NCBI GenBank assembly: GCA_003216715.1 | Contig: QCIK01000005.1 | Span: 1 to 64,000 of the forward strand | DNA: 64,000 nucleotides | Direction: 5' to 3' | Source: Prochlorococcus sp. AG-402-L09 | Lineage (GTDB): Bacteria > Cyanobacteriota > Cyanobacteriia > PCC-6307 > Cyanobiaceae | In this document: positions 23,416 to 63,726 of the stretch, piece after piece | Layout of the letters: the number at the start of each line of letters is the position of its first letter | Numbering within the stretch: the stretch's first letter is position 1 | The notes under the pieces: model-generated | What the model saw: only the letters and a program-made list of their open reading frames with translations | What the model was told of the DNA's origin: nothing | Databases searched by the model: none | Translations under genes and position numbers: made by a program

Positions 23416-23504
23416 GCTTGATAGTGGGCTTAAAATCAAAATAACTTATTCATGTAAGTCATTTTGTTTTTTGCTAGTGACAAACAGTCCGTAAAGGAGT
23501 AAAA

Positions 23505-23585
23505 ATAAACTAACAGGACAACTCCTCACACAATCGTTCTGTTAAAAAAAGCACCCAACTTCTTGTAAGCAGGGTGCTTTTTAAA
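23505..23585 (+). ncRNA. Candidate small RNA, hairpin with AACTCCTCACAC loop plus terminator
   Basis: AACAGGAC (23512-23519) and GTTCTGTT (23536-23543) form an 8-bp stem with one G-U pair. The loop displays AACTCCTCACAC. Directly after it AAAAAGCACCC / GGGTGCTTTTT (23546-23582) is a strong intrinsic terminator. The loop contains CTCCTCAC, the ultraconserved core of the cyanobacterial sRNA Yfr1, but in Yfr1 that core is single-stranded between two stems, so this is Yfr1-like at best. The 5' end is not defined. A second member lies at 27829. Confidence 0.6.
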
Positions 23586-23880
23586 TGATTAATTGTACCC
23601 ATGGTAAATATGGGAATCAGAAACTACTCTGCTCATACTTGAGAGTATTGCTTCAAAAGCATGTTTGAAATTTGTAGAGAGTTAGATTTTCCGAAGTGGA
23701 AACAAGCAAGTCATTAATACTGAGCTCTAAAAAATAGCCCTATGCCCAACAAACAAGGCTGTTATTGTTTTTATTTTTGATCTAGAAAAAGAAATGCAAG
23801 CACCAAGCAATCAGAACGGTTTTCTTTACAATCTTTAAGCTAAAATCTTTAATAAATCAATTATTATTGGACTTTATCCA

Positions 23881-24123
23881 ATGACTGAAGACACTAACAA
23901 AGAGAAAAATAAATGCAGAAACAAAGGAAAAGCGATGTTTGCCTATGGAATTATTCAATTAAGTTCCAACGTAGTCTCTGCTGTTGCGCTTACAGCTATT
24001 GCATTTAGTTTTTGCTCAGTAAAAAAGGAAGCAAAAGTTTTCAATGATTGTGTAGACGAAGTGCGAGCAAGTGGGAAAAGTTCTTCAAATGCAGTTCGCT
24101 TCTGCAATGGCGGAAAAAAATAA
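23881..24123 (+). CDS. Small membrane protein with Cys-containing tail
   Basis: 80 aa. A charged N-terminus (MTEDTNKEKNKCRNKGKAM) precedes one hydrophobic helix (about 20-46, AYGIIQLSSNVVSAVALTAIAF). Then a soluble tail with FNDCVDEVRASGKSSSNAVRFCNGG, where two Cys could pair. This looks like a real small protein by its composition. Family not recognised. The minus-strand ORF over it is a shadow. Confidence 0.6.
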   Translation: MTEDTNKEKNKCRNKGKAMFAYGIIQLSSNVVSAVALTAIAFSFCSVKKEAKVFNDCVDEVRASGKSSSNAVRFCNGGKK

Positions 24124-24847
24124 TTTTTTGAAATGTAAAGGTAAATTTTTTCTTCCAAGTGAATTAATCAAAAAAAAGGGGGGGGTGAATATTTTTATCA
24201 CTTCCCTTTTATTTATCTATATAAATTGCTTCCTTAGAAATCGTATATTTCTTCTATCCTTGCCCATTGCTCAATTTCATTTGTTGCTCGCTGAAATTCA
24301 GTCAGTTTAATTGCGCTTGTTCTTCCTCATTTAATTAATTTAAAACCCAGGAAGATATAAAAAAAGTAGCTAAATCTGGTTTAGAGCTATTTTTTTTCTA
24401 TCTGGAAATTTCTATTTTAGAGTTCTTTCAAATAAGCTTTATCCAAATAGTCAATTCTCCTTTATTCAACTATGAGATTTTATGTGATTCGATAAATGTT
24501 TTCAATGCCTATACTACCCATTTTATAACTGAGTTTTAAATATCGTTTACTAGAAGCCTCATGATTTTTTCTTGGTTTGGATTGTTTGCCCTCAATATTG
24601 TAATGAATTTATTAATTCATCTTCATTAACAATTTGCTGTTAGACAATATCGTATAGAGAATTGTAAGATTTTGTCATTTGTAAGTGACGTATGAAGCTT
24701 TTTTCCTTTCCCAAACTGTATGTTTGGAGACATAGAATAGATCACAGATAGACTCTTCAAGTTCTATTAATTAATACAAAGAGTTTTAAGAAGTTTAAAA
24801 TACTAATAGAGCTAGAATAAAATTACTTATATGAGTATTTCTGAGAA
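24124..24847. other. Gene-poor stretch with one terminator
   Basis: The ORF at 24071 is a shadow of the preceding gene running into AT-rich DNA. A G-run (about 24179-24185) and a terminator at 24366 are the only marks I see. Confidence 0.5.
24366..24398 (+). terminator. Candidate intrinsic terminator
   Basis: TAGCTAAA and TTTAGAGCTA pair with a 2-nt bulge and are followed by eight T. It would serve transcripts arriving from the 23881 gene or an unseen RNA in between. Confidence 0.5.
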
Positions 24848-26425
24848 ATGAATGAATCTGAGAAAATAAAAGAAGTAAGAAAGCAAGCTAGTGAAATAAA
24901 AACATTTACAGTTCCATCTGCTCTAGTAGAAATTAAAGAAAATATTTCTATTTCTTCCAATACTCATTCTCAATCTGCTAAGCAAGAAATAATTAACCAG
25001 GCATTTAAGTTTCATGGAGAAGGAAACATTACTGAAGCAGCAAAATATTATAAATCATTTATTGATCAAGGCTTTAAACATCATATAGTGTTTTCTAATT
25101 ATGGAGCAATTTTAAAGGCTTTAGGTAAATCACAAGAAGCCGAAAAATCATATAGGCAAGCTATAGAATGTAATCCTAATTTCGCACAAGCTTATGCCAA
25201 TCTTGGAAACACTCTAAGGGATCTGGGGAAATTACAAGAAGCCGAAATATCAACACGTAAGGCTATTGAGCTTAATTCTAATTACGCAAAAGCACATTCT
25301 AATCTTGGAAATATATTGAGAGATCTTGGAAACCTAAAAGAAGCAGAAAAGTCCTATCTCAAAGCAATTGATCTGAAACCTGATTTTGCTAATGCGTATT
25401 CTAGTCTTGGATTATTACATCTACAAAAACATGAGCACGAATTATCATTAAAATATTTTTCAGAAAGTTGTGAATTACTTAGAGGAGTAAACAATAAAGA
25501 ATATACTAATAAAAGGTTTACAAGAATTAGCCAGGTTAAAATAAAACATGATATTGAACAATTTGAATATTTAGCATCTCAAAGTTACGATACTAAAAAA
25601 TATACTCAGCTTGCTATTCTTTATAAAAAAGTTGCCTCCGAAATTCATTGGCCATCGATAAATGCATTAGTTCTTTTAAATGATAAACATATCAACCTTC
25701 TAAAAGATAGTTATAATCGTTTATTAAATCAAAGAAATACTTCTATATTAAAAGAGGAAGCAGTTAATAACCTATTAGATGTTGATAAAATTACAAGCAA
25801 TTATTTTGACCATGATTTTGGATTAACTTACATTGATAATTTCTTAAGCAGTGCCGCTCTTGAATCTCTTCGACAATTTCTCCTTGAAAGTACAATTTGG
25901 TTTGACGTCAGAGAAAATGGATATCTCGGAGCGTATTTAAAAGAAGGTTTAGCTAATCCTTTAATTTTTCAGATAGCAGATGAACTTAGAAAAAAATTTC
26001 CAAAAATATTTTTGGATTATCCTATCAATCAAATATGGGCTTTCAAATATGATAACAGTGCAAAAAAGAAAAATTCATCTCTGAAAGGCATCAATGTTCA
26101 CGCAGATTTCGCCGCTATAAATGTCAATTTTTGGATTACTCCTAAGGAAGCAAACTTAAATCCTCAGTCTGGTGGATTAATCGTTTATGACGTAGAAGCA
26201 CCAAAAGATTGGGATTTTAAAACTTATAATCATGATGAGAAACGAATCAGAAAAGAACTAGAGAAAAGCCAAGGAAATACACATGTTATACCTTATAACG
26301 AAAATCGCGCTGTCGTCTTCAATTCAAATTTATTTCATGAAACTGATGATTATGAATTTCAAGAGGGCTATGAGAATCGTCGAATTAATGTCACGATATT
26401 ATTTGGAGAAAGAAGTAAAAGTTAA
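24848..26425 (+). CDS. TPR protein with 2-oxoglutarate/Fe(II) oxygenase-like C-terminus
   Basis: 525 aa. TPRs run from about residue 50 to 200, four to five units, with LGNxLRDLGxLxEAE text nearly identical to the gene at the left edge. The C-terminal 200 residues resemble a double-stranded beta-helix oxygenase: INVHADFAAINVNFWITP (HxD), FNSNLFHETDDY (distal His), and RRINVTILFGERS (Arg for 2-oxoglutarate). The target may be a protein held by the TPRs, or a glycan. No signal peptide. The repeats shared with the 5'-truncated gene make the two a likely recombination pair. Confidence 0.8.
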   Translation: MNESEKIKEVRKQASEIKTFTVPSALVEIKENISISSNTHSQSAKQEIINQAFKFHGEGNITEAAKYYKSFIDQGFKHHIVFSNYGAILKALGKSQEAEKSYRQAIECNPNFAQAYANLGNTLRDLGKLQEAEISTRKAIELNSNYAKAHSNLGNILRDLGNLKEAEKSYLKAIDLKPDFANAYSSLGLLHLQKHEHELSLKYFSESCELLRGVNNKEYTNKRFTRISQVKIKHDIEQFEYLASQSYDTKKYTQLAILYKKVASEIHWPSINALVLLNDKHINLLKDSYNRLLNQRNTSILKEEAVNNLLDVDKITSNYFDHDFGLTYIDNFLSSAALESLRQFLLESTIWFDVRENGYLGAYLKEGLANPLIFQIADELRKKFPKIFLDYPINQIWAFKYDNSAKKKNSSLKGINVHADFAAINVNFWITPKEANLNPQSGGLIVYDVEAPKDWDFKTYNHDEKRIRKELEKSQGNTHVIPYNENRAVVFNSNLFHETDDYEFQEGYENRRINVTILFGERSKS

Positions 26426-26967
26426 CTAGGCTCGTCCTAAAATCTTCCAGGGTTTTAGGAATAATTTATAGATAAAATTTATACAACAACCTATTATAGG
26501 TATATATTTCAAATTAATGGTAATTGAAAATCATAATTCTATTAAATATATTCTTTTTCATTCCTGTCGCTCATTTTACCAGCGCTCCTTAACCTTTTTT
26601 GGAATATACTGGTCTAGAAGCACTAAGAACTTTATCAGGATTACTATTGCTTAGAAAGTGAATCGCATATAAAAATAATTAAATTTTCCTAATATTGTAG
26701 TCGTTTTCTGTACACCTATTTAAAAGTGCTAAATAATTTCAATTAGAGAAAATATCACTCTAAAAGGGAGTGTTTGAAATATATGACATTACAGCAATTT
26801 ATATGGATGCATCAATCTTCTATTTGCAATTAAGAGAAATAAAGAACAACTATTTATATATAGTTCTTTTAGATAAGAGATACACTCAATCTCACCAGTA
26901 AGCCGGGTTATCTGTTTTAACGTAAGTAGTCAAGATGACTAGAGCATCAATTTAATGAGGATGTTGT
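26426..26967. other. Gene-poor stretch
   Basis: CCTAAAA / TTTTAGG at 26436-26459 is a plausible weak terminator for the TPR-oxygenase gene. A second hairpin, ATGAGGATG / CATCCCTCAT (26955-26982), spans the stop of the next, minus-strand gene. I see no ORF in between. Confidence 0.5.
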
Positions 26968-27696
26968 TTAAGCATCCCTCATCTCTAGAGATGCCCTAGT
27001 TTCATCTACAAAATGGATTTCCAGTTCATTACTAAAGATGTCCGTGCCGTTGGAGGGAACTTCAAGCGGTAAATTTCTATAAGTCAGCAAACAATTTTCC
27101 ATATTTAGTTCTTTTGATGAAAAATTTCCATCGTGCCGTCCACCCTTTGTCTTAAATTCTCCTGCTTCTGTTCTCGACCAGATGATAAACCAATCAAGTT
27201 TTTCCAATTTTTCTAGTTTTGCCTCATTCTCGTCGTGGTAGTTATCAGAATCAAAAAACTCCATTAGAGATGTCTCAATACTCTCACCATCAACTTCTAT
27301 TCCTCCTTCTTCCAAGTGAATCTTGTATTCCTCTGCTCCATCCTCTTCAAGAAGAACTTCATTATTAAAAGTCTTCTGAGCTAGTGCTAACATTTTTTCT
27401 TTTCTGTCATCAAGAATCTTGCTGATAACCATGTCTTCGTCCCAGTGACGCTCATCAATAACATATCGTAGTGCACCAAATCTTTCGGAAAGTGCCTTGT
27501 TAGCAGCATTTTTAGCAATCTTCGCTGCCTTTGCACTATCTTCATCAAGTTCCTGTTTCAAGCGTTTTATGTCACTCGCTAGTGCATCCATTTTTTTATA
27601 GAACTCGCCATAATATTTTCCCGCTCTCGTTTTTTCAGTTGAGTAGAAGACCTTAATGTATTGAATATCCCCGTTGTAAGTAACTTCAAATGACAT
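26968..27696 (-). CDS. Coiled-coil hypothetical protein
   Basis: 242 aa, acidic, no membrane segment or signal peptide. Residues about 30-75 are heptad-like and Ala/Lys/Glu rich (YKKMDALASDIKRLKQELDEDSAKAAKIAKNAANKA, split here only for description), fitting a coiled coil. The C-terminal half is strand-rich and acidic. Its base composition is less AT-rich than its surroundings, hinting at a different origin. No family recognised, and it has no coding neighbour on the same strand within 650 bases. Confidence 0.65.
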   Translation of the reverse strand: MSFEVTYNGDIQYIKVFYSTEKTRAGKYYGEFYKKMDALASDIKRLKQELDEDSAKAAKIAKNAANKALSERFGALRYVIDERHWDEDMVISKILDDRKEKMLALAQKTFNNEVLLEEDGAEEYKIHLEEGGIEVDGESIETSLMEFFDSDNYHDENEAKLEKLEKLDWFIIWSRTEAGEFKTKGGRHDGNFSSKELNMENCLLTYRNLPLEVPSNGTDIFSNELEIHFVDETRASLEMRDA

Positions 27697-27819
27697 TGGA
27701 TCTGAACTATTTTTTAATACTTGATATTGTGTATCAAATGATAACTTGATTATTCTACTCTTTTTGGAACACTAAAAATAGGTACTTTTTCTGTTGATTT
27801 TCTTTTTGGTCGAATTAAA

Positions 27820-27912
27820 AAGTTAATAACAGAACAACTTCTCACACATTAGTTTTGTGATCAAGAAAGACCCTCGATGCCACTTCTTCGCAGGGGGGTC
27901 TTTCTTGATGGA
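27820..27912 (+). ncRNA. Second candidate small RNA with AACTTCTCACAC loop plus long terminator
   Basis: ACAGAAC (27829-27835) and GTTTTGT (27852-27858) form a stem whose loop shows AACTTCTCACAC, one base different from the 23.5-kb copy. It is followed at once by a 14-bp perfect hairpin, ATCAAGAAAGACCC / GGGTCTTTCTTGAT (27860-27909). The flanking GTTAATAACAGAACAAC also resembles CTAACAGGACAAC of the first copy. It lies in a region with no ORF on its strand, so it is not a gene terminator alone. Confidence 0.55.
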
Positions 27913-28080
27913 ATCAAAGGGAGTCCTTGGTAGAAAAATGAAACAATCATTTGACCGAACAGAGGAAAGTATTACTTTTATCTCTGTCGTAAGTAGCTAA
28001 GGATCCGCCAGTGAGTAGGTTGTTCCTTTTTCTCTGGCAATTGAAATGATTCCTCCATCGGGAATGACTTACACCAGCAA

Positions 28081-63349: not shown

Positions 63350-63632
63350 CTTGAGACTCTATCTGCGGGAATGAGAGTGAGGCCCTCGCAGGCCTCGTGG
63401 ATCACTTGGGTAATAAGGCTGATCTGACCCCATCTCCGTTAAAAGATCAAGCAGCAACAGGGGCTGTTTGACGGGAGAAACTAACGATGTTGTTAGCAGT
63501 TATGGTTTTGCTCTGACCGAGCAGGCTTCAGTCACTCGCCTGATACCCCGTCGAAGCCATTGCAACCCCATTTTATGGAGCTGAGCGGAATCGAACCGCT
63601 GTCCGAGATATTGGTGTGAATCACCTAGTCCA
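63350..63632 (-). ncRNA. ssrA: tmRNA, permuted two-piece form
   Basis: On the minus strand the acceptor piece comes first: AGCGGTTCGATTCCGCT (T arm) and CAGCTCC, ending in A at 63576. The coding piece then starts at 63569 with GGGGTTG, which pairs with CAGCTCC. The spacer is only about six bases. The tag ORF (63497-63447) reads ANNIVSFSRQTAPVAA from resume codon GCT, then TGA. CCA is not encoded next to the acceptor end. Two hairpins (about 63353-63398) close the coding piece; the exact ends are approximate. It rescues stalled ribosomes with SmpB. Confidence 0.95.
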
Positions 63633-63726
63633 TTAGAAAATAGACAAATATATTCTGACAGATGTTTTGGAATTAATCGATTAGTGTTTAAAGAAGTTTT
63701 TGAGAGTTTTTATTAACTTACAAGTA

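Follow-up and report, generated by a model that had tools for sequence, protein, structure and literature searches.

The window analysed here comprises 64,000 nt of a Prochlorococcus genome, and a sequence-only reading had noticed in it two hairpins that display a core like that of the cyanobacterial small RNA Yfr1 in their loops. They had been proposed as Yfr1-like regulators with a different presentation of the core, possibly forming a separate family. This raises the question to which kind of RNA gene the two sites belong and in which condition they are.

Structure and surroundings of the two sites

Site A (23507..23583, + strand) comprises a stem, a motif-bearing loop and a terminator, while site B (27823..27907, +) is a second, diverged gene of the same type. 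Both assignments are based on sub-threshold matches to the Rfam family RF02362, on a covariance model of our own (R1) and on the predicted fold, complemented in the case of site B by three orthologues. According to the predicted folds, AACUCCUCACAC or AACUUCUCACAC is displayed in a loop of 16 nt at each site, followed by a strong terminator hairpin. The motif at site A, AACTCCTCACAC (23520..23531, +), represents the Yfr1/Yfr10 core and lies inside the loop, and its counterpart at site B, AACTTCTCACAC (27836..27847, +), differs from the core by one C to T, the orthologues carrying AACTCCTCACAC. Both 12-mers were found exactly where they had been placed before, and the presence of motif hairpins with immediate strong terminators at two sites is confirmed. 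Allowing up to one mismatch, the window contains three matches to the motif compared to 0.36 expected, and none of 100 shuffles reached three.

The predicted minimum free energy is -24.6 kcal/mol for site A (z -6.1) and -25.7 kcal/mol for site B (z -4.4), with no shuffle as stable in either case. The loop-bearing stem has 9 bp at site A and 7 bp at site B. Since the small 5' hairpin alone is thermodynamically not exceptional (z -1.7 and -1.0, respectively), the case has to be carried by comparative evidence. The intrinsic terminator hairpin of site A (23545..23582, +), which is apparent from the predicted fold and from compensatory changes, was not flagged by a simple terminator scan. A probable promoter precedes site A at 23477..23506 (+). 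Its elements GTGACA and AAAAAT, separated by 18 nt, end about 6 nt ahead of the stem. Shuffles give a mean of 1.0 for this pattern, which is thus weak alone, but 13 locus-A sequences, one of them from the window, share the conserved region TAGTGACAAA...GGAGTAAAAAT.

The neighbouring ORFs of 242, 105 and 80 aa showed no match in Pfam. Locus A is syntenic: among 18 contigs with the 105-aa ORF, which in the window precedes site A, 16 carry a Yfr10-like gene at its 3' side. Matches to the 242-aa ORF were obtained only from Prochlorococcus single-cell genomes and MAGs (AG-402-M18, AG-402-O21 and others), and the clade is probably low-light I. Between site A and this ORF, the intervening stretch varies in length and content among relatives. 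A TPR-repeat protein is encoded at 24848-26425 (+), the C-terminal part of which resembles, by eye, a putative 2-oxoglutarate/Fe(II) oxygenase; since the number of its homologues at this spot varies among relatives, it marks a variable region. At the far end of the window, a cyanobacterial-type tmRNA gene was identified (63380-63661, -; RF01851, 297 bits).

Covariation and family assignment

In an alignment of 32 homologues, which has both window sites among its rows, 98.8% of the cells are paired in the loop-bearing stem and 97.1% in the whole structure. Over the whole structure, 8 pairs changed on both sides compared to 3.7 in shuffles, and none of 500 shuffles reached any of the five measures. 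As related sequences can beat such shuffles without any structure, more weight was given to a slid-register control, in which the paired fraction amounts to 97% in register versus 38-58% when slid. In one relative (L040:4336-4416), for example, a C-G pair of the stem is replaced by G-C. These compensatory changes support the stems and bear out the earlier observation that the stem bases differ and pairing is kept. The loop, likewise described as conserved, is indeed nearly invariant across the homologues, although the U in CUUCUC of site B looks derived.

R1 was built from this alignment. Since both window sites were part of the training set, their own R1 scores of 96.6 bits (A) and 56.7 bits (B) are not independent, which most other R1 matches are. 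The sequence-only reading had named a covariance search across relatives as a check and the lack of further members as evidence against its proposal. Such members were found in 39 of the 41 congeneric genomes, among them every one of the 17 with a completeness of 90% or more; outside the genus, weaker R1 matches occurred in a minority of the family.

The best Rfam match at both sites is Yfr10 (RF02362), an RNA described in 2008, with targets mapped in 2019, that presents the Yfr1 motif in a loop atop a stem. The scores of 39.5 bits (A) and 28.4 bits (B) lie below the gathering cut-off of 43 bits, which is a curator's threshold and not a biological feature. When 60 related genomes were searched with RF02362, 36 had a match, mostly below the cut-off, and all of these belong to this genus. 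Only two genomes exceeded it, with 45.9 bits at G027:C11:5281 and 44.0 bits at G001:C17:2230, the latter of locus-A type, so that the Rfam model misses nearly all of the genes present in 39 of the 41 congeners. Because it is homologous to members that pass the cut-off, site A is filed as Yfr10, while site B is filed only as Yfr10-like due to its paralogy. The conserved 11-nt sequence ACUCCUCACAC is exact at site A and in the site B orthologues, and site B itself shows one C to U. Altogether, two paralogous sRNA genes of the Yfr10 kind are the best explanation, a conclusion in which we have high confidence. The reasoning from a Yfr1-like core in a different presentation to a separate family was accordingly right, but this family is the already known Yfr10 and not a new one.

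Some further candidates were discarded. Yfr10 matches on contig C24 of the same genome (Rfam, 30.3 bits) and several minus-strand R1 matches are probably due to chance or to a terminator only. No match to site A was obtained in phage and plasmid records. The short pattern occurred in 14 viral contigs, none above 16.4 bits with R1, and these look like chance matches.

The Yfr2 partner and a proposed mechanism

Among 103 strong R1 copies, 90 are followed on the same strand by a Cyano-1 (RF01701) gene within 400 nt, mostly at a distance of 66-90 nt. Viewed from the other side, 90 of the 130 Yfr2 genes have a Yfr10 upstream. The Cyano-1 RNA (GTGAGGAGTT... GTGGAAACAAGGAAACACTT) is equated here with Yfr2, which we infer from its sequence together with published data showing that Yfr2 5' ends are complementary to the Yfr1/Yfr10 motif (PMC2518516). 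The Yfr10-Yfr2 arrangement has been stated for high-light strains (PMC6778093); for the present clade, no such statement was found in the accessible literature.

Behind site A, a decayed Yfr2 was recognized at 23676..23785 (+) by alignment with the intact Yfr2 of locus-A relatives. Compared to these, the anti-Yfr10 stretch GTGAGGAG and the second GGAAACA are gone, and Rfam gave no Cyano-1 match behind site A even at an E-value of 10. A possible weak remnant of the site B partner is indicated by a partial alignment at 27985..28075 (+), where Rfam likewise returned no Cyano-1 match behind the site. Two of the site B orthologues (G006 and G015) have an intact Yfr2 40-44 nt behind. Since Yfr2 is also low-scoring or absent at locus A of three relatives (L030, L025 and L031), its loss or decay at this locus is not confined to the genome studied. 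Elsewhere, this genome holds three intact Yfr2 genes as well as a complete Yfr10-Yfr2 cassette on contig C8. With Yfr2 decayed behind A and unrecognizable behind B, both copies would rely on Yfr2 from other loci of the genome.

A third Yfr10-like hairpin-terminator often follows Yfr2 in the same orientation at a distance of about 360-370 nt (L003:994-1079, -; G000:C8:80162-80247; L126; L127; L134). Its loop keeps ACTCCTCACAC in L126, L127 and L134 and reads AACTCCTTACC in this genome.

For the pairing of either site with the three intact Yfr2 RNAs of the same genome, cofold energies of -6.2 to -8.9 kcal/mol were predicted after paying for the opening of both structures. Duplex-only energies were discarded in favor of these values, since they ignore intramolecular structure. 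The predicted duplex of each loop with the Yfr2 5' end comprises 12-15 bp. Replacement of UCCU (UUCU at site B) by AAAA abolishes most of the predicted pairing energy, and none of 100 loop shuffles reaches the original value. For the decayed Yfr2 behind site A, the predicted pairing was nothing beyond shuffles.

These predictions can be compared to the findings in strain MED4, where pull-downs, RNase E assays and primer extension demonstrated pairing of Yfr10 with Yfr2 and with mRNAs via the motif (PMC6778093). There, the partners bound by Yfr10 are Yfr2 and over 200 mRNAs; it needs its UCCU core to bind the ppa mRNA, which is displaced by Yfr2, and its level increases in darkness (PMC6778093). 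Each of the present genes would be transcribed from its own promoter into an RNA of roughly 75-85 nt, consisting of a hairpin with AACU(C/U)CUCACAC single-stranded in the loop and a subsequent terminator. The loop would most likely serve as an antisense seed that recognizes UGAGGAG-like stretches in mRNAs, presumably the targets. The 5' end of Yfr2 (GUGAGGAGUU), the gene of which forms tandem cassettes with that of the sRNA in relatives, is predicted to pair even better with the loop and could thereby titrate the sRNA. What is shown for sites A and B comprises sequence, predicted structure, conservation, covariation, cassette synteny and predicted pairing. By analogy to MED4, both are likely trans-acting antisense regulators, the activity of which would be set by the Yfr2 pool.

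The earlier expectation of a target signature in leaders did not hold: TGTGAGGAG is not enriched, with 8 occurrences in the genome compared to 5 of the reversed control. Four of the 8 belong neither to a Yfr2 nor to the strand opposite a Yfr10, and none of these is closely followed by a start codon, leaving no plausible leader site. This null result for perfect complements in leaders names no targets. It agrees with published data that place the majority of Yfr10 contacts within coding regions (PMC6778093).

Alternative readings and comparison with known systems

The shared 11-nt core (PMC2518516) could suggest that sites A and B are copies of Yfr1 itself. This reading is already contradicted by structure and location and has practically no probability left. 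In the congener examined, Yfr1 has a gene of its own (RF01116, 65.1 bits), in which the motif is unpaired and flanked by a stem on either side. Its neighbours, named by eye from their sequences, are IMP dehydrogenase (guaB) and thioredoxin (trxA). At sites A and B, the motif is located in a hairpin loop, the neighbours are others, and RF01116 was not among the matches at either site. The true Yfr1 exceeded the RF01116 cut-off in 29 of the 41 congeners, with one copy each. None was detected in the genome of the window by the same search; since this assembly is 92.5% complete, absence is not claimed. It is very improbable that the hairpins belong to the 3' ends or leaders of adjacent mRNAs instead of representing separate sRNAs. 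Site A starts about 92 nt past the stop codon of the 105-aa ORF on the same strand, for which it could also act as terminator, but the conserved promoter-like block lies between this ORF and the hairpin. Upstream of site B, the neighbouring gene is divergent, and no ORF in the orientation of the site follows closely; the paralogues occupy many other contexts.

More serious is the possibility that only site A is functional and site B a decaying pseudogene, i.e. a former Yfr10-Yfr2 cassette with a drifting sRNA. The three site B orthologues (84%, 78% and 78% identity) all carry the CUCCUC core, which makes the U in the core of site B probably a derived change. With its motif mutated in this way and a weaker stem that includes a G-U pair, site B may be degenerating. 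In line with decay are also a second C to T besides that in the core, located in the 3' arm of the stem, the shorter stem, the lower R1 score, and a Yfr2 of which at most a weak remnant is present. Furthermore, a possible third Yfr10 copy between A and B (26835..26916, +; R1 30.1 bits) looks decayed, having kept a 5'-stem-like hairpin and lost the loop motif. On the other hand, both substitutions of site B still allow G-U pairs, in the stem and in the duplex with Yfr2, and the energy predicted for its pairing with Yfr2 (-6.2 to -8.3 kcal/mol) is comparable to that of site A. The terminator of site B is strong in the predicted fold, and the AACTTCTCACAC variant also occurs in another genome (G036:C10:5819-5835, -). 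Considering both sides, we regard a pseudogene at site B as somewhat doubtful.

Two paralogous Yfr10-type genes thus remain the preferred explanation, and a wider picture can be drawn for the clade, although we are slightly less than evenly confident in it. It would carry a repeated cassette of Yfr10 and Yfr2, sometimes with a third hairpin about 450 nt on, that multiplied around a variable region and lost one partner at a time, so that cells such as the present one, with orphan Yfr10 genes, would shift the ratio of regulator to sponge. What is new here is how widely these genes occur in the clade, that they form multi-copy cassettes, and that the Yfr2 half has decayed at site A and has likely been lost at site B. 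Yfr10, so far mapped as single genes in high-light strains, is thereby extended to a further Prochlorococcus clade, in which it forms a multi-copy, syntenic set. For an organism in which genetic manipulation is difficult, the recurring tandem of Yfr10 and Yfr2 with its occasional loss of Yfr2 represents a natural experiment on sRNA sponging.

Compared to known systems, the two sites resemble Yfr10 of MED4 and its relatives Yfr12 and Yfr18 most closely, which also present ACUCCUCACAC in a 5' hairpin loop followed by a terminator. The known RNAs measure about 78 nt, and their genes are located upstream of Yfr2-type genes. Sites A and B differ by their scores below the Rfam cut-off, their terminator and stem sequences, the several copies per genome, the decayed Yfr2 behind site A and the one core change at site B. 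Yfr2 (Cyano-1, RF01701) is related to them through its 5' end, which is the exact complement of the loop, and as the tandem partner in relatives; it is, however, a partner and not the sRNA itself, and the window holds it only in decayed form behind site A and at most as a weak remnant behind site B. With Yfr1 (RF01116) the sites share the pairing core, but Yfr1 presents this core unpaired between two stem-loops and is a single-copy gene at guaB-trxA.
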